Part shown: one piece after another, positions 147-44,661 of the stretch
Layout of the letters: each line of letters starts with the position of its first letter
Position numbering within the stretch: the stretch's first letter is position 1
Origin: Pontibacter sp. G13
Lineage (GTDB): Bacteria; Bacteroidota; Bacteroidia; J057
Direction: 5' to 3'
Assembly: GCF_031851795.1 (NCBI RefSeq)
Contig: NZ_CP134696.1
Span: forward strand, 3,058,501-3,122,500
DNA: 64,000 nucleotides
Made by a program: the position numbers and the translations under genes
The notes under the pieces: generated by a model
What the model was told of the DNA's origin: nothing
Databases searched by the model: none
What the model saw: only the letters and a program-made list of their open reading frames with translations

Positions 147-2600
147 TTATCGGAGCGCAACGGTGAACGCCCATTTCCAAGCGATATTTTTTTGCCAATC
201 AGGCGATCCATACGGCCCAAAATTGTAAAACACTCCACCGCCTAGTCCTGCATAAAAAGCATTCAGCATCGGAAGTCTTATGGCCTGGTCTACCCATGCA
301 CCCGTCTCCCAGTAACCGCGCTCCATCGTCTGAAATGGCATGGCAGAATGTCTCTCCGGATGCGCCAAGCTCCCAAAGGCTATACCTTGCGACAGATAAA
401 ACTGCGGTGCGGAAAACTTGCTGATCGGAATCGGTCCGCCCAATTGCTGTCGAATGAACAGGGAGGCGTATTGATCTGACAAAAATGCATAGACCGGCAT
501 GGTCTGAAAGGTGTTAGGCACCCAAATCCGTAGATCTTCTACCTGACTGCCTTGACCGAAGAACAACCTTGGTGCAGGAGCATTTCCCCAGACTTTGCCG
601 GCAGAAACGGAAATAGAGGTTTCACCCAACCACAGCGTTTGTCCCCGCCAATCCATTCGAAAATCGAGTCGATCATAGGCCAAAGCCTGATCTGAGAAAG
701 TATCCCAACCTCTAATCCATGCAGCCTGAAAAACGGGCAAATTCGACCCCATTGATACATGTTGCCCCATGACTTCCACCCATCTTTCTTTGGGGGCGTA
801 CCTGAGTTGCACCCGCGTTTCATCCAAAATAAACGCGGCAGAAAGGGGCATTCCATCTTCCGGCTGAAATTGATAAGGATATGCGGGCCTCAATTCGATA
901 TGGGCTGCTTGGAGACTCAGTTGCCATGCTTTGTGAATCTGGAGAAGCGATCGAAAGCCAAACTGATTAATTCGGTCTCGGCGATCGGCGATATTCCGGG
1001 AAAAATCCACTTCTGGATAAGGAGAACTCATGATCCTCAATCCCGGCTCTTCGAGATCCTGCTCCCAAAAAACCTGCAAAAAGCTTTGACCTTTGGGATT
1101 CGGCAAAAAAGAGAGGCTACTACCAAACTTCATTCGCTTGTCCCGGAATCCATACCGGAAATATCCACCCAACTCCCAATGCCTTGAAATTTTGTCGCCA
1201 GAGATCACCCCTAGCCCAAGCGTCAACCCTTCATGGAGATTGAATCCTCCGAGACGATTGAGATCAATATCCACAGGCCCGAGGGGAAATCGCCCTTTCC
1301 CAAAATGCTCGCCCATATCCATGATCCGCTGAAAATTGTGTGCCTCAGATACGCTATCGAGCAATTGATAAGTATTTTGCTCCCGAATAGAGAGTGGAAC
1401 AGGGCGCTGAGCATCCCACCAACCTTCATCCTGATACCCTGCGCTGTCAGCCAAGTTGACCTCCACCCACTTGATCTTTTGACGGGCAAGGCTGGGATCC
1501 AAATTCACATTTCGGAGGTCACTTCTTCCAGACATCTCGATTCCAATTCCCGATTCTCCCATAGAAGCCAACTGCATCTTGAAATTGAGTTGCTCTGGGA
1601 ACCAGTGCTCTCCATCAGGCCGATTGTAAAGCTGCTCGATCTTCATGTTCCAAAATCCTGTAATGGCAGGCTCGGCTGTAACCATTTGGACCGCCCACCG
1701 GTGGGTATTGACATGGAGAATTCCTTTTAGGCCATTAAATTTTCTTCCGCCTTTGGGCTTGTAGGTAATTTGATAAATGGTATCCAGTCCGTCGTACAAG
1801 GTATCCGCCATGGCAAAGTGGTATCGAGGAATTCCTACTGCACCGATGGGATTGGCGTAGGAGAGATCACCGATTTGGATCATGTCGTCGTAAAAGGAAA
1901 ACGGTTGGAAGTCGGTGGCAAGTGCCGCGAACGTGGGGTTTGGCAATCCAGACATTTTGGTGGCGATGACAGTCTGGGAGGCTTTGTCGGGGGCTTTGCC
2001 TTTTCTCTCGGTTACAGACTCCAAGACGACCAAGGCCATCTTTTCGACCTGCTCGCTGAGGTTTTCTCGTTCGGATGAGTCGGCAATACCGGACAGGGAG
2101 GAATCCATAATCGCCCAATCTCCCACTACCTTATTGTAGATTTCACAAGTATAACCGGGAAGATTTCTGGGTGCATTTTTTTTTCGGTGCTTGGCTACCT
2201 GCTTCATAACGTACCGAGCGGGATCGCGCGCTCCGGATATTTCTACAGGATCCAGAGATGCATTTGAGGGGCTAAGATGAATGACGGTTGATCCAGTCTC
2301 CAGCTCTCTGCGTTTGAACAATCTGGGGATGTACCCTACATAACTCACCGTAATTTCAGATTCTGAAGCTGGAACAGTCACATCGAATTCTCCTCGGATA
2401 TCTGCTACAGAACCATATTTTCGATCCTTGCCCCAGGTGACGTGGGCAAATGCCAATGGTTGTCCAGTTGAAGCATCCAAAATTTGGCCAGATAATTTCC
2501 AGCCATTTTGGGCTTGGACTTCGGGGAAAGGAAGCAAAACGAAGAGTAGGCTAAAGAATATTGGTATCCAGCCCAATTGTCTACATACGAGTTGGTTCAT
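147..2600 (-). CDS. DUF5686 / carboxypeptidase-regulatory-like outer-membrane protein
   Basis: An 817-residue protein with an N-terminal signal peptide (cleavage probably after VQAQ near residue 31), then a carboxypeptidase-regulatory-like beta-sandwich (about 34-115: LSGQILDASTGQPLAFAHV and ITVSYVGYIPR), then a long region with the layout of DUF5686, a Bacteroidota family predicted to form an outer-membrane barrel. The C-terminal half alternates short amphipathic strands and aromatic residues, and ends in FTVALR. The regulatory-like domain is also found in TonB receptors and may act as a periplasmic folding unit. The molecular role of DUF5686 is not established. It stands alone on the minus strand, with a strong terminator behind it and about 500 bases without genes in front. 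The ATG at 2600 directly precedes a plausible signal sequence and is accepted. Confidence 0.85.
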   Translation of the reverse strand: MNQLVCRQLGWIPIFFSLLFVLLPFPEVQAQNGWKLSGQILDASTGQPLAFAHVTWGKDRKYGSVADIRGEFDVTVPASESEITVSYVGYIPRLFKRRELETGSTVIHLSPSNASLDPVEISGARDPARYVMKQVAKHRKKNAPRNLPGYTCEIYNKVVGDWAIMDSSLSGIADSSERENLSEQVEKMALVVLESVTERKGKAPDKASQTVIATKMSGLPNPTFAALATDFQPFSFYDDMIQIGDLSYANPIGAVGIPRYHFAMADTLYDGLDTIYQITYKPKGGRKFNGLKGILHVNTHRWAVQMVTAEPAITGFWNMKIEQLYNRPDGEHWFPEQLNFKMQLASMGESGIGIEMSGRSDLRNVNLDPSLARQKIKWVEVNLADSAGYQDEGWWDAQRPVPLSIREQNTYQLLDSVSEAHNFQRIMDMGEHFGKGRFPLGPVDIDLNRLGGFNLHEGLTLGLGVISGDKISRHWELGGYFRYGFRDKRMKFGSSLSFLPNPKGQSFLQVFWEQDLEEPGLRIMSSPYPEVDFSRNIADRRDRINQFGFRSLLQIHKAWQLSLQAAHIELRPAYPYQFQPEDGMPLSAAFILDETRVQLRYAPKERWVEVMGQHVSMGSNLPVFQAAWIRGWDTFSDQALAYDRLDFRMDWRGQTLWLGETSISVSAGKVWGNAPAPRLFFGQGSQVEDLRIWVPNTFQTMPVYAFLSDQYASLFIRQQLGGPIPISKFSAPQFYLSQGIAFGSLAHPERHSAMPFQTMERGYWETGAWVDQAIRLPMLNAFYAGLGGGVFYNFGPYGSPDWQKNIAWKWAFTVALR

Positions 2601-12646: not shown

Positions 12647-12836
12647 GATTGGGGCGTATCTCGGCGCCCAAACAGGAGAGAGGGCTCTAGGCATAAGGGT
12701 CGCCGAGTCGGGCCCTTCCGTGCTCGCTGACGCTCGGTCGAGGATCTGCGGGCGAGAGATCGCAGCCCGCAGATCCTCGACTCCTCCTGGCGGAGGCCAC
12801 TACAGACCCCTTACGCCGCTGCCAAGCCCACCGCAC
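12647..12836 (+). repeat. Dispersed palindromic repeat, copy A1
   Basis: Begins GATTGGGGCGT and ends GCCCACCGCAC. The core GGGCCCTTCCGTGCTCGCTG then CGCTCGGTC is shared with the other copies. It holds a 17-bp perfect hairpin (12737-12753 with 12765-12781) around the loop GAGAGATCGCA. The right part CTCCTCCTGGCGGAGGCCAC matches copy B read on the other strand. It lies back to back with copy A2. Confidence 0.85.
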
Positions 12837-12879
12837 TCTACATGAAGGGAACGAGACTTGGGCAAAGGGAATCCCATGA

Positions 12880-13101
12880 AATGTGCGGATGGCCCGTGGG
12901 GCGTGATGGGCCTGGAGGATTCAGTCGGTGGAGACGGATCTCATGCTCGGAGCAAGCGATGGATCGGCATTGACTCAAGATGTCCGGCTCATCCAAATCT
13001 CCACCGACCGAGCACCGCGAGTCCGGAAGGGCCAGACCCCGTGCCTCCTCTGATCAGCAAGATCCCAGATCCCAAGCACACGGGGACACGCCCAAATGAT
13101 C
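12880..13101 (-). repeat. Dispersed palindromic repeat, copy A2
   Basis: Same element in opposite orientation to A1. On the minus strand it starts GATCATTTGGGCGTGTCCCC and ends GCCCATCACGCCCC, then GGGCCATCCGCACAT. The middle has GGTCTGGCCCTTCCGGACTC and TCGGTCGGTGGAGA, with the pairing arm TCTCCACCGACTGAATCC about 90 bases later. It is longer inside than A1 and B. Confidence 0.85.
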
Positions 13102-15040: not shown

Positions 15041-16705
15041 CTAGCCCAATTGGAATTCTGGGCTTTGCAACAAGGCTCTGATCAGCTTTTTGATCTGGGG
15101 CTTCACATTGGAGTCATCCAGGGTCGCGAGATAGAGATCCCATTCGAAGGACCAATTGATCTCCGAGAGACTATCTAGCAGAATCTCATTCAAGAAGTAG
15201 TCGAACCGGGCTTGAGGCAATGCTTCCGGCATCAGGTAATCGACCAGTTCTTGCACCAAATGCGGGGCGATTCGAGCGCCGGGATGCGGGCCGGGTGCGC
15301 CATTGGCATCTGCTCCGGCAAATTCCGTGATACGCGTGGTATCCTGCACAAAAGCCATGACATCCATCTGCAGGATCTCGGGGCCATCCAGATGCTCGTC
15401 CGGCAAGGCATATCGAGCAGGAATGGATTTGGAGCCCACCCACAGGCGATTGAACTCTGGTGACTGATAGACAGGCGGATAGCCCGCCACCTCTGAGGGC
15501 CCCAAGATATCCATGCATGCCAGTGATTGAGGATCTTGAATCCCCGACCAGTAGAAGGTTACGTAGGCTTCGAATGGATCAACCGCAGGATCTGGAAGCG
15601 GCACATCAAAATACCGGATGATCTGCGTCTGCAATTCTAGTGGAGATTTGATCAACGCGCCCACTCTACCATCCGTCGCATCGGCATCATCCGCATCGAA
15701 GAAATGCTCGCTTTTCAGCAATTGCTTCAAGACCGGTAGCACTTCAAAATTGTTGGCGATGAAGGACTGTGCCAATGGCTGGATGATGCCCGTCTCCGCA
15801 TCCGAGGAAATATGGTAATGCACGAATAGCCGATAGAGGCGACGCATGATATACTCCGCAGTGGCAGTCTGATTGAAGATCATATCCACAAATTGCTGCA
15901 ACTCCAGCAACATACCAGCGGCCGTATCGGTACCAGCGATGATGGTATTCTGAAAGCGTGCGGAAAAGAGTTTGTCCGTGGGATCATGCTTATTCGGATC
16001 AATCCATGCTTGTGGAAACCCTGTCACGGGATCTAGGCGTGTCGGATCATCCCAGTCATTGTTGAGTCGGAAACCTGTGAGCAAACGGGCCGCTTCGTTG
16101 ACGTCTTGTTCAGTGAAAGTGGTGTAATCACCCGTACCGGCTGCAGGACCTTTTCCGATGGTAAAAAGCTCCAGAAACTCACGGGCAAAATTCTCATTGG
16201 GATTTCCCTCCACACTTTCACCAATGTCGAGAAATTCATTCATCCCGCCGTCGAGACAGATCTTGAAGGCGAGGTCTTTGTAGCTTTTGTCCACAAAGTA
16301 GTTCAGGAGCCTGATCGTGTAGTAGTGGTTTTCATTCCACTCGATGTCCTTGAAACTGGTGACAAAGCTCGTATGCAGGAAAAAGAACAGTTTATGCGCA
16401 AGGGTAGGGCTGGCGGAGGCGGTCATCATGTGATGGAGCCACCAAGAATTGACGATGTATTTGAGATCCTCGTTGGGCGAATTGGCTTGCGTACGCCCGG
16501 CAGGGAACCAAGTGAGATTAGTTGCTGGATCGATTGGCTCAGTTGCCATGACCGGTATGACCGACAAAGCATCCACTGCCTGATCGGCAGTCATGGAGGC
16601 AAATGAATCGATCTCGGTACGGGTAGCTCCAAAGGTTGCGCGACGTAGCAAGTGAGCCGCCAACCTTCGGCCCAAAGTGCCAGATCTAGGTGCTAGAGAA
16701 GCCAT
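15041..16705 (-). CDS. DUF1800 family protein
   Basis: A 554-residue DUF1800 protein. Family landmarks are LAAHLLRRATFGATRTEIDSF near the N-terminus, WWLHHMMTASASPTLAHKLF, the segment NENFAREFLELFTIGKGPAAG, EQDVNEAARLLTGFRLNND and the C-terminal YPPVYQSPEFNRLWVGSK and QSPEFQLG. DUF1800 proteins nearly always sit directly upstream of a DUF1501 gene, as here (35-base gap), and the two are believed to act together; their biochemical role is unknown. No clear signal peptide is visible at the ATG at 16705, so either export is indirect or the start lies elsewhere. A second, shorter pair is at 53201-55814. Confidence 0.88.
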   Translation of the reverse strand: MASLAPRSGTLGRRLAAHLLRRATFGATRTEIDSFASMTADQAVDALSVIPVMATEPIDPATNLTWFPAGRTQANSPNEDLKYIVNSWWLHHMMTASASPTLAHKLFFFLHTSFVTSFKDIEWNENHYYTIRLLNYFVDKSYKDLAFKICLDGGMNEFLDIGESVEGNPNENFAREFLELFTIGKGPAAGTGDYTTFTEQDVNEAARLLTGFRLNNDWDDPTRLDPVTGFPQAWIDPNKHDPTDKLFSARFQNTIIAGTDTAAGMLLELQQFVDMIFNQTATAEYIMRRLYRLFVHYHISSDAETGIIQPLAQSFIANNFEVLPVLKQLLKSEHFFDADDADATDGRVGALIKSPLELQTQIIRYFDVPLPDPAVDPFEAYVTFYWSGIQDPQSLACMDILGPSEVAGYPPVYQSPEFNRLWVGSKSIPARYALPDEHLDGPEILQMDVMAFVQDTTRITEFAGADANGAPGPHPGARIAPHLVQELVDYLMPEALPQARFDYFLNEILLDSLSEINWSFEWDLYLATLDDSNVKPQIKKLIRALLQSPEFQLG

Positions 16706-17179
16706 GGGTGAAGGATTGATTGAAAGCGAATACAGACACTCGACATTCTACTCGGAGGCAAAAGCACATGGGTATCAACCCATTACCGAAGCTCCGGAAT
16801 GGAATGCGAAATCAGTTCAAGTACTCGTTCGTCAGTGGAAAAAAATACCCCAAAAGCAGGCAGAAAGGATGTATGACCTGCTTGAGACCAAAGATAGGAT
16901 TCGGTCGAATATTTCCCAGTATGCCATTTCCGCAACACATGTTAAGTTTCTCGGGAAATTGTATGCTGGAAAAAGGACCCATTGCGGAAATATCCATAAC
17001 TATTTCGCGAATGGTCCAATGTGGGCCATTTTTCGGACTACATACGAATATGTACCTAGGTATGTCTTGCCTGTAATAATATTCCCTTTTTTTGCATAAA
17101 GCCCCTGATAATAATCCAGAGTTTTGAACCATCAGCTAATTTTGCTGGAACTTGCTTCTAGGTTTACCTTGTAAGAATC
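16706..17179. other. Divergent intergenic region between DUF1800 and the PKD protein
   Basis: About 470 bases. A plus-strand frame at 16677-17099 overlaps the DUF1800 start and shows no family features, so no gene is called. A small hairpin AATGGTCC/GGGCCATT lies at 17010-17031. TAGGTTTA at 17159-17166 is a weak promoter-like match before 17180. Confidence 0.45.
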
Positions 17180-19579
17180 ATGCGCTTCTGGATCATTTCT
17201 TGGGCAATCGGCCTGTTTTGCTGGATTCCCCTATCCGTCAAAGCCCAACTTCCCCCCAATCAACCCGAACAGGATTGTAGCAGGGCCATCTCCTTGTGTC
17301 AATCCACATACATCCAAACCAACTCCTATCGAGGAGCGGGAAAGGACCCTGATGAGATCAATGGAGACTACTCCTGTATGCTGATCGGAGAGCGAAACAG
17401 CGTTTGGTACACCTTCACGGTCCGAACTTCAGGGATGCTCTGCTTTTCGATCATTCCCTTCGATACGTTGGATGATTATGACTGGGCCCTTTTCGACCTG
17501 ACCAATGCGGATTGCGGAGATATCCGAAACGATCCCAACATCCAGATTCGCTGCAACTGGGAATACAACCAGGGATGTCAGGGCATTACCGGAGCCAATG
17601 GAAATACCATCTGTCCCGGTCAAAGCGAAGATTGCATCCAAGTACAGGCAGGTGAGACTTATGTGCTGAATGTGAGCAACTTCTCCGCTTCGAATGCGGG
17701 CTACACCTTGGACTTTTCGGCTTCCTCTGCCAACCTCTATGACAATGTCCCTCCGGAGGTCAAATCCATGACGAGCTTTTGTCAAGGAGTAACGGTTGAA
17801 TTCAACGAAAATATCCAATGCAGCACGGTCGACAGTTTGGACTTTACGTTTTCGGGACCGGGTGGGCCTTATACCATCTCTCGAGTCACCAGCGAATGGT
17901 GTGATCAAGGCTACGGATTTGATCGCGAGTTCAATCTTTTTCTAGATCCTCCGATCACCCAGCCGGGCAATTACACGATCACCTTGACAGGGTATGTCGG
18001 CGATGTCTGCGGCAATGCAGCTGTGAGTGTTAGCCAGCAGATTTATATGCCACAGCCTCCCAATGCCGCCATGCTCGCGGTAGATCCTCAGTGCGAGGAA
18101 GCCAACCTGTTCAGCTTTGTCTACACAGGAGCATCCAAGATTGCCGGGTATGACTGGAACTTTGGAGACGGTCTCAGATCGAGTCGAGCCAATCCGATCC
18201 ATTCCTTTGCGCAATTCGGTGAATACGACCTTCGATTGGCCATTATCGATGAAAATGGTTGCCGAGATACAGTCCACCAAAATGTCAGTGTGCTACCTGG
18301 ACCGGGGGCCTATTTTGACATTTCCCCAATCGTCTGTGAATTGGATTCGGTATCCTTCACCAACCTCACCACCAACCGTGGGGGCTATCCTCCGACTTCC
18401 TTCGAGTGGGAATTTGGGGATGGAAGTAGGCTCACAGACTTCGAGCCAATCTTCAGCTTCCAAAGTCCGGGCGACCATTTGGTTTTGCTGGAAACCTACA
18501 ATGCACTCGGTTGTAGGGATACATTTTCCAGAGTCATTCCCGTCCTTCCTGCACCGGATGTACTGTTTATTCCAGAAGAGGATGTCTGCATGGGCGATGA
18601 AGTCACGCTGCTGAATTCGAGTACGATGCCGCTTCAGGTTCAGGAAGATGTGATCGAAAGCTGGTTTTGGCTGTGGGGAGATGGAGATACGACCTTCATG
18701 GATTTGGCCCCCACGCATACCTACGATACTGCTGGCATCTGGCCCGTAACGCTAGTGGTGCAATCCAATCAGGGATGTGTGGATAGCTTGACCCTTGATC
18801 AGCCTATTTACCGACCAAATGTTCCCGCTTTGGCGGACATCCCTATTTGTTTAGGGCAGCCAGTAACGCTACTGGTAGAAACGGATTCGCAAACCATTCC
18901 CCATTGGTACCACCTTCCGGATGGGATGGAAAGTTTCCGTCAAGGTCCCACTCACCGAATCGAGTTTTTGGTTTATCCAGATACCTTCTACCTGGAAGCG
19001 ATCTCAGAGATTGGCTGTATTTCCGAACGAGTGATGCTGGACATTGCTCCTACTCCCATTCCTCAAGGGGATATTCTGGCATTGGACACCTTGACACCAT
19101 TGACACAGCCGATCGAATTCATCTTCGAAACCGATGGCGTTCCTGTACAATGGGCTTGGAATTTGGGAGATGGCACGCGAGATACGGTGGCAACCCTTTC
19201 GCATCTGTACCCAGCCCCGGGAAGATATCGGGTGAGGTTGGAGGTGGTGGATACCACTGGATGCGCCAACCAATTCGAGCAATGGATTCAGGTACAGCCT
19301 ACAGGCTTGCCTTTGGTCCCGAATGCATTTTCTCCCAACGGAGATGAATACAATCCCATCTTTTTCATTCCCCCTCACGAATTGAGTCAGTTCACCTGCT
19401 CCATTTTCAGCCGAAATGGCCAATTGATTTATCAAACAGATGATCCCGCGATCAATTGGCGGGGGGTATCCTCAAGTGGAAAATCTGTTCCGGAAGGAAC
19501 ATACGTATATGCGTTGCAGGGAATTGACCCACTGGGCAATCCCGTTCAAATGAGTGGAACCATCACTTTGTTCCGCTAG
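17180..19579 (+). CDS. PKD-domain surface protein with gliding-motility-associated (type B) C-terminal domain
   Basis: A 799-residue secreted protein. Signal peptide 1-22 (cleavage near VKAQ). Residues about 30-180 form a Cys-rich beta-sandwich (CSRAISLCQSTYIQTNSYRG, VWYTFTVRTSG, YVLNVSNFSASNAGYTLDF). Several PKD repeats follow, each with the WxFGDG-type motif: YDWNFGDGLRSS, FEWEFGDGSRLTD, FWLWGDGDTTF and WAWNLGDGTRDT. The C-terminal 85 residues (LPLVPNAFSPNGDEYNPIFF, IFSRNGQLIYQTDDP, VPEGTYVYALQG) are the type B sorting domain used for type IX secretion. It is probably a cell-surface adhesin or matrix protein. It is a single transcription unit with a strong terminator. Confidence 0.92.
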   Translation: MRFWIISWAIGLFCWIPLSVKAQLPPNQPEQDCSRAISLCQSTYIQTNSYRGAGKDPDEINGDYSCMLIGERNSVWYTFTVRTSGMLCFSIIPFDTLDDYDWALFDLTNADCGDIRNDPNIQIRCNWEYNQGCQGITGANGNTICPGQSEDCIQVQAGETYVLNVSNFSASNAGYTLDFSASSANLYDNVPPEVKSMTSFCQGVTVEFNENIQCSTVDSLDFTFSGPGGPYTISRVTSEWCDQGYGFDREFNLFLDPPITQPGNYTITLTGYVGDVCGNAAVSVSQQIYMPQPPNAAMLAVDPQCEEANLFSFVYTGASKIAGYDWNFGDGLRSSRANPIHSFAQFGEYDLRLAIIDENGCRDTVHQNVSVLPGPGAYFDISPIVCELDSVSFTNLTTNRGGYPPTSFEWEFGDGSRLTDFEPIFSFQSPGDHLVLLETYNALGCRDTFSRVIPVLPAPDVLFIPEEDVCMGDEVTLLNSSTMPLQVQEDVIESWFWLWGDGDTTFMDLAPTHTYDTAGIWPVTLVVQSNQGCVDSLTLDQPIYRPNVPALADIPICLGQPVTLLVETDSQTIPHWYHLPDGMESFRQGPTHRIEFLVYPDTFYLEAISEIGCISERVMLDIAPTPIPQGDILALDTLTPLTQPIEFIFETDGVPVQWAWNLGDGTRDTVATLSHLYPAPGRYRVRLEVVDTTGCANQFEQWIQVQPTGLPLVPNAFSPNGDEYNPIFFIPPHELSQFTCSIFSRNGQLIYQTDDPAINWRGVSSSGKSVPEGTYVYALQGIDPLGNPVQMSGTITLFR

Positions 19580-37968: not shown

Positions 37969-38160
37969 GATGTGCGGATGGCCTGCGGGGCGTGATGGGC
38001 CTGAAGTGGCCTCCGTCAGGAGGAGTCTCGAATCTGGAGGTGGCGATCTCTCGCCTCCAGATTCGAGACCGAGCGTCAGCGAGCACGTAAGGGCCAGACC
38101 TCGCGCTTGATTCTCCAGAGAAAGCCTACTGTCAAGCACGCGGGGGCACGCCCAAATCTC
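37969..38160 (-). repeat. Dispersed palindromic repeat, copy B
   Basis: On the minus strand it starts GAGATTTGGGCGTGCCCCCG and ends GCCCATCACGCCCCGCAGGC, then CATCCGCACATC. It holds a 16-bp perfect hairpin (38025-38040 with 38054-38069). The arms differ in sequence from copy A1, but the loop core GAGAGATCG is identical. It fills the gap between infC and the convergent TPR gene. Confidence 0.85.
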
Positions 38161-44443: not shown

Positions 44444-44661
44444 GATTTGGGCGTGCCCCCGCGTGTTCGGCCTTGGGTACCTTTCAGAAATTCGAGTCGC
44501 GGGGTCAGGCCCTTCCGGACTCGCCAGAGGCTCGGTCGGTGAAAACAAATCCCTACCGATCAACATATTAAACCTCATACAATTGACTCCTCCAGATGAA
44601 GTTTGCAACCCACCGACTGAATCCTTCAGGCCCTTCACGCCACACCAGCCAGCCGCACATC
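44444..44661 (+). repeat. Dispersed palindromic repeat, copy C
   Basis: Begins GATTTGGGCGTGCCCCCGCG and ends AGGCCCTTCACGCC, then GCCGCACATC. It has GGGGTCAGGCCCTTCCGGAC and GGCTCGGTCGGTG near the middle, and the pairing CACCGACTGAATCCTTCAGG 70 bases later. It lies between the lipoprotein gene and the hydrolase gene at 44755. Confidence 0.85.

Follow-up and report, generated by a model that had tools for sequence, protein, structure and literature searches.

What is the sequence that recurs between genes at positions 12647-13101 of a 64-kb stretch of the Pontibacter sp. G13 genome (the window, meaning the whole 64,000 nucleotides analysed), and how has it spread? An earlier note had described two neighbouring copies there, A1 and A2, and two more, B and C, elsewhere in the window, all sharing conserved blocks in the same order. 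The four copies are present where they had been placed, and a covariance model built on an initial alignment of 21 copies in this genome (R1) agrees with the proposed coordinates within 1-3 nt in every case. Each is a full-length member of a single family (R1, E 7e-36 to 6e-19), and R1 gives no further match in the window at E<=10. As had been described, all four are intergenic and A1 and A2 are arranged tail to tail; these two are separated by 42 nt. A1/A2 and B occupy convergent gaps between called genes, and C a tandem one. The copies, the predicted strands of the fold in C and the inner hairpins of A1 and B are located as follows.

12647..12838, plus strand: copy A1, subtype T1, with an inner long hairpin (R1 81.6 bits, E 5.7e-19)
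12740..12778, plus strand: perfect 14-bp inner hairpin of A1, GAGGATCTGCGGGC...GCCCGCAGATCCTC
12881..13098, minus strand: copy A2, subtype T2, tail to tail with A1 (R1 144.5 bits, E 1e-34)
37970..38158, minus strand: copy B, subtype T1 (R1 98.3 bits, E 3.8e-23)
38026..38068, minus strand: perfect 15-bp inner hairpin of B, TCTCGAATCTGGAGG...CCTCCAGATTCGAGA
44444..44660, plus strand: copy C, subtype T2 (R1 149.2 bits, E 7e-36)
44450..44455, plus strand: C, P1 5' strand GGCGTG, partner 44636-44641, with covariation
44457..44463, plus strand: C, P2 5' strand CCCCGCG, partner 44498-44504, enclosing a variable loop of about 34 nt
44498..44504, plus strand: C, P2 3' strand CGCGGGG, partner 44457-44463
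44507..44512, plus strand: C, P3 5' strand AGGCCC, partner 44629-44634
44517..44519, plus strand: C, P3b 5' strand GGA, partner TCC at 44622-44624
44535..44541, plus strand: C, predicted P4 5' strand GTCGGTG, partner 44611-44617, enclosing a variable loop
44611..44617, plus strand: C, predicted P4 3' strand CACCGAC, partner 44535-44541
44629..44634, plus strand: C, P3 3' strand GGCCCT, partner 44507-44512
44636..44641, plus strand: C, P1 3' strand CACGCC, partner 44450-44455
44647..44660, plus strand: C, conserved 3' tail AGCCAGCCGCACAT, outside P1

Copy number, fold and relatives of the element

The expectation that these copies belong to a dispersed family with hundreds of members is supported by searches beyond the window, in which both BLAST and the covariance model find many more matches than the four. 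BLAST with one copy as query returned 69 matches, and in the genome-wide R1 search, in which the best 150 candidates were scored, all 150 matched at E<=5e-16. We estimated the copy number from 60 evenly spaced 20-kb pieces (1.2 Mb) chosen without bias, in which R1 gave 83 matches at E<=1, 81 of them at E<0.001; one copy per approximately 14.8 kb in this sample corresponds to about 510 copies in 7.67 Mb. The elements are 120-250 nt in size.

In the 21-copy alignment, the 5' half of the element consists of GATTT, GGGCGTG (P1), CCCCGCG (P2), a variable loop, CGCGGGG (P2') and TC-AGGCCC (P3), followed in the middle by TTCC-GGA (P3b), CTCGCTGGTCGCTCGG, GTCGGTG (P4), a variable loop and CACCGAC (P4'), and in the 3' half by TCC (P3b'), CAGGCCC (P3'), CACGCC (P1') and a tail whose last letters are GCCGCACAT. 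The fold is multi-branched and closed by P1; one arm carries P2 and the other P3, P3b, P4 and P5, and the conserved head GATTTGGGCGTG and the tail form its two ends. The element had been called a large palindrome, which is accurate for the GGGCGTG and CACGCC ends, as these do pair, but not for the whole, since the fold is branched and about 20 nt more lie beyond the right arm. Inner hairpins are interchangeable between copies; those of A1 and B have different sequences around a like kind of loop.

The alignment was produced with MAFFT and was unfitted to the structure, while the structure itself was read from the same sequences. Paired cells amount to 96.1% in the 21 copies, compared with 38-46% when the partners are slid, and 15 base pairs have changed on both sides (56 cells); not one of the 500 shuffles attains such values. 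Unguided RNAalifold recovers a nearly identical structure. P1 itself occurs as GGGCGTG/CACGCC, GGGGGTG/CACCCC, GGGCGAT/ATCGCC, GGGTGTG/CACACC and other variants among 83 sampled copies, whereas the P4 pairs are invariant among subtype T2 copies and hence carry no covariation signal. The fold is thus kept by Watson-Crick compensatory change across widely differing sequences. Single-sequence DNA folding of A2 gives a minimum that differs from the model structure. Inspection by eye gave no support for a pseudoknot that would join the P2 loop to the tail.

The existence of similar elements in Bacteroidota had been mentioned, and the same architecture is indeed found in a genome of the same family, in other Bacteroidota and in Saprospira grandis. 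In the same-family genome (G009), at least 27 copies, shorter than those of the window, have the same architecture; an alignment of them together with four copies from further genomes, fitted to the model, contains 27 compensatory pairs (167 cells; 0/500 shuffles). A covariance model of this type (R2), combined with a pattern scan, identified the architecture in a Saprospiraceae MAG (G067), in three further genomes (G281, G320 and G034) and in S. grandis strains Lewin and DSM 2844. Judging by architecture and weak R2 scores (E 0.001-5 each), the Saprospira elements are probably homologous to those of the window. No match was obtained in 11 of 12 other genomes of the same family, nor in plasmid and phage collections. 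The rarity of the element in a survey of 395 genomes should not be interpreted as absence, because detection, with 6-8 candidates scored per genome, was insensitive.

Genomic placement and replacement of contents

None of the 79 sampled copies for which both neighbours were called overlaps a called gene. They occupy 27 convergent, 49 tandem and 3 divergent gaps, against 53, 286 and 87, respectively, of all 426 gaps, a comparison that takes gaps of any length and is uncontrolled for length. Convergent gaps are favoured and divergent gaps avoided, and the element is found mostly at gene 3' ends. Of the 79 copies, 24 have a hairpin resembling an intrinsic terminator no more than 110 nt from the head, and 13 have one at that distance or less from the tail. 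Among the best 150 copies there is no consistent strand excess along the chromosome in 0.5-Mb bins, the replication origin not having been placed.

Most copies are single. Where copies share one gene-free gap, all 11 cases, A1/A2 included, are tail to tail, while the chance expectation is a quarter, and the six close pairs in each S. grandis strain are all arranged in the same way. At one locus (L174) a unit in which two heads-out elements enclose other repeats is present twice, inverted; homology of the duplicates (71 to 1677 versus 12507 to 11165) stops exactly at the outer heads, and the sequences beyond are unrelated. Two copies at L146 are 87% alike, with the likeness confined to the element. 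The two copies at L157 have head, P2 and tail in common, a likeness that extends 16 nt past the tail, but differ in their inner modules and have unrelated 5' flanks.

Other palindromic intergenic repeats, dispersed or in tandem, are often enclosed by two heads-out copies; they include CATCCCGCAAAATTTCG...GAAATTTATGCGGGATCTCAAGCTTCGTGCATG and arrays with periods of ~432 and ~164 nt. Separately, Acido-Lenti-1 RNA (RF01687) has three matches between two element copies, one of them above the gathering score.

L174:241-1460; L142:1587-2436; L178:8084-9210; L177:4156-6731 and 16529-18539: other palindromic repeats
L012:762-807, 906-951, 1107-1152, minus strand: Acido-Lenti-1 RNA matches (Rfam RF01687)

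The two S. grandis strains, compared over 400 kb each, are ~94.5% identical and keep synteny over 345 kb. R2 gave 63 and 62 matches and the anchor pattern 83 and 89, from which 61 orthologous element pairs were obtained (anchor pattern). The junction blocks GCTCGC, GCTCGGCC and GGTCT show no difference in the 61 pairs, an invariance that is partly by construction because the anchor pattern (nearly) fixes those blocks. The modules, on the other hand, frequently differ: P2 in 43 pairs, P4 in 42, P5 in 39, P6 in 34, and segments X and Y in 33 and 35. X and Y together form P3b, and their triplets pair in 163 of 172 elements, compared with a mean of 48.5 and a maximum of 66 in shuffles; between the strains, 19 double changes kept the pairing versus 2 one-sided changes.

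Core identity is mostly 93-100% for copies that were kept and mostly 62-84% for copies that were replaced, the latter making up 26 of the 61 orthologous copies. Within the one tenth of the genome that was searched, 25 of the 26 replaced copies are nearer to a non-orthologous copy (8 at >=95%), as are 2 of 22 kept copies, and the flanks are ~93-95% identical versus 69% for the replaced elements. Of about 61 R2-detected positions, no more than one or two clearly have no counterpart. Sites are therefore stable, while their contents are overwritten, in the inner modules or across almost the entire interior, by sequence like that of another copy. Of two candidate empty sites, one was an internal deletion and the other an intergenic stretch that had been replaced; with no clean whole-element empty site between the strains, no insertion event of a single new copy was captured.

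S. grandis also contains a second, related subfamily, TTTTGGGGCCTCC...ATCGCTAGGCC (L245-L264, L265-L284), and at one locus (Lewin offset 251561) the two strains have different subfamilies. Palindromic segments (AATGAGGGTTAAAACCCTCAT...) are inserted within the P2 loop of resident elements and are polymorphic between strains.

Lewin offset 164011; DSM offset 194411: P2-loop insertions

Possible routes of spread

We consider it somewhat better than an even chance that this is a non-autonomous intergenic DNA element acting as a folded single strand or cruciform, REPIN-like but of a new modular type. From the observed fold, placement, pairing and replacement we infer that element-length copies would pass between sites and overwrite resident copies, that more rarely they would establish new sites, as single elements or heads-out pairs, and that a trans-acting protein or host recombination would recognise head, tail and junction blocks. 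Against this reading stand the lack of a linked candidate mobilising enzyme and of a clean empty site, the A2 folding minimum, and the nature of the evidence for Saprospira homology (architecture and weak R2 scores). Orientation bias, which would be expected under IS200/IS605-type single-stranded DNA transposition, is likewise not seen in the best 150 copies.

A doubtful but quite possible alternative is that the process is passive: hairpins break or stall replication forks (cruciform cleavage, e.g. by SbcCD), repair copies another copy by ectopic gene conversion, and an ancient family is homogenised in this way without dedicated machinery. This is consistent with the resemblance of replaced copies to others in the genome, the conserved synteny and the hypervariable hairpins, but the homology shared between copies amounts to short blocks (6-8 nt), with ~69% overall identity of the elements, and the original populating of ~500 sites, the invariable tail-to-tail pairing and the duplication ending at heads would go unexplained. 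The mobile folded DNA element that we favour might even represent a new class of selfish DNA in Bacteroidota, in which branched single-stranded DNA spreads mainly by overwriting its own resident copies at fixed intergenic sites by means of a dedicated enzyme, with recombined hairpin modules and a strict Watson-Crick constraint; this is a speculative and rather unlikely extension.

A link to a REP-associated tyrosine transposase (RAYT) had been suggested as a check. The genome encodes two Y1 genes, resembling subclasses 1.2 and 2.6 by motif, and a model search found no element copy within 1.5 kb of either; each is flanked on both sides by its own repeats, which differ from the element. The subclass-2.6-like gene (NHIH, YIHQNP; L032:1100-2060) has several flanking ~47-nt palindromes, CGCGGACTTCCGGACC...AGTCCGCG, which are likely its cognate REP family. 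The subclass-1.2-like gene (YIRRQKEHH; L031:1000-2380) has GGGAATGAAATTCCCTGCCTGTGATATGTCGGGC repeat arrays on both sides; no typical repeats have been reported for subclass 1.2 (PMC6006769). G009 also carries subclass-2.6-like Y1 gene(s), its Y1 genes being on short contigs, and no Y1 genes were found in S. grandis in 800 kb plus loci (~10% of each genome). A cluster of copies near a RAYT was explained by repeated duplication of an RHS-like gene cassette. In L072 (G000:C1 5465000-5484999), RHS-like C-terminal cassettes are repeated, several of them followed by an element copy, with a 3' flank identical among them.

It is improbable that the element is of REP/REPIN type and moved in trans by a host Y1 (RAYT-like) transposase. 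Inverted ends, a hairpin with compensatory changes and inverted doublets do fit REPINs (PMC3116915), and this genome and G009 both have Y1 genes resembling subclass 2.6, a subclass with "atypical" structures in Bacteroidetes (PMC6006769); however, both Y1 genes here have other repeats as neighbours, the element is without a GT[AG]G foot, G067 carries the element with no match to a Y1 gene, and there is no strand bias.

That the element is a structured RNA, either a 3'-UTR element or a small RNA, spread via some mobile process, is similarly unlikely. The compensatory changes, the placement at gene 3' ends and the strand-specific conservation of unpaired motifs would all be compatible with it. 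However, P1, P2, P3 and P3b of 83 copies contain 4 G·U cells versus ~1593 Watson-Crick cells (0.25%), while 18 tRNAs from the same sample contain 26 in 383 (6.8%). Stepwise change under RNA selection should often pass through G·U, so its near absence implies that G·T acts as a mismatch or that both strands are under selection, which suggests, short of proof, that the selected form is folded DNA and not RNA. The element is also without an Rfam match: the only window match at gathering score is a tRNA elsewhere in the window, and at four loci carrying elements only chance-level matches touch or adjoin an element (NsiR1, E 0.45; mir-492, E 0.35). Finally, a MITE of a DDE-type transposon with incidental hairpins, already disfavoured, is very improbable. 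In its favour, the element is short, non-coding, dispersed and sharp-ended; against it, head and tail show no terminal inverted repeats that match, no target duplication is visible in the flanks, and the covarying pairs are internal, far from the ends.

Known systems and significance

Double-hairpin and mobile palindromic elements of mitochondrial DNA are short mobile hairpins with compensatory change; they differ in being organellar, and we know of none with a branched fold and fixed junction blocks. BOX elements are composed of boxA, boxB and boxC modules with repeated boxB. Those of Streptococcus pneumoniae (PMC3049150) are, like the present element, dispersed, modular and structured intergenic repeats, but they come from another phylum and have other modules, a distinction made by description and not by sequence.

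REPINs, which are REP doublets forming hairpins, share with the element (in Pseudomonas and others) hundreds of intergenic copies, inverted ends, a variable hairpin spacer, frequent compensatory changes, inverted doublets and a non-autonomous nature (PMC3116915). The element is larger (120-250 nt) and multi-branched, its inner modules are interchangeable and its copies are replaced in place. REPs are recognised by a GT[AG]G foot at the hairpin base (PMC6006769), which neither the head GATTTGGGCGTG nor the tail GCCGCACAT provides, and no cognate RAYT was found; since both the foot motif and a linked RAYT were looked for without success, we do not claim REP membership. "Atypical secondary structures" adjoin subclass 2.6 TnpA_REP genes in Bacteroidetes (PMC6006769) and are comparable in being structured, in occurring in Bacteroidota and in having further genomic copies. 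Here it is the ~47-nt CGCGGACTTCCGGACC...GTCCGCG palindrome, and not the element, that flanks the subclass-2.6-like gene, and the published structures are provisionally set apart on this basis.

The element is absent from Rfam, and a literature search by sequence motif and by topic, with most subscription literature outside it, found no description. With ~500 copies here and, by extrapolation, ~670 in a 4.3-Mb Saprospira genome, it ranks among the main constituents of the intergenic DNA of these bacteria. Its copies document, in nature, how selection acts on base pairing in DNA as opposed to RNA, and the two S. grandis strains, Lewin and DSM 2844, allow content replacement at fixed sites to be traced event by event. 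Identifying the factor responsible would bring either an extension of the HUH/RAYT world or a further route by which short folded DNA is moved or converted.
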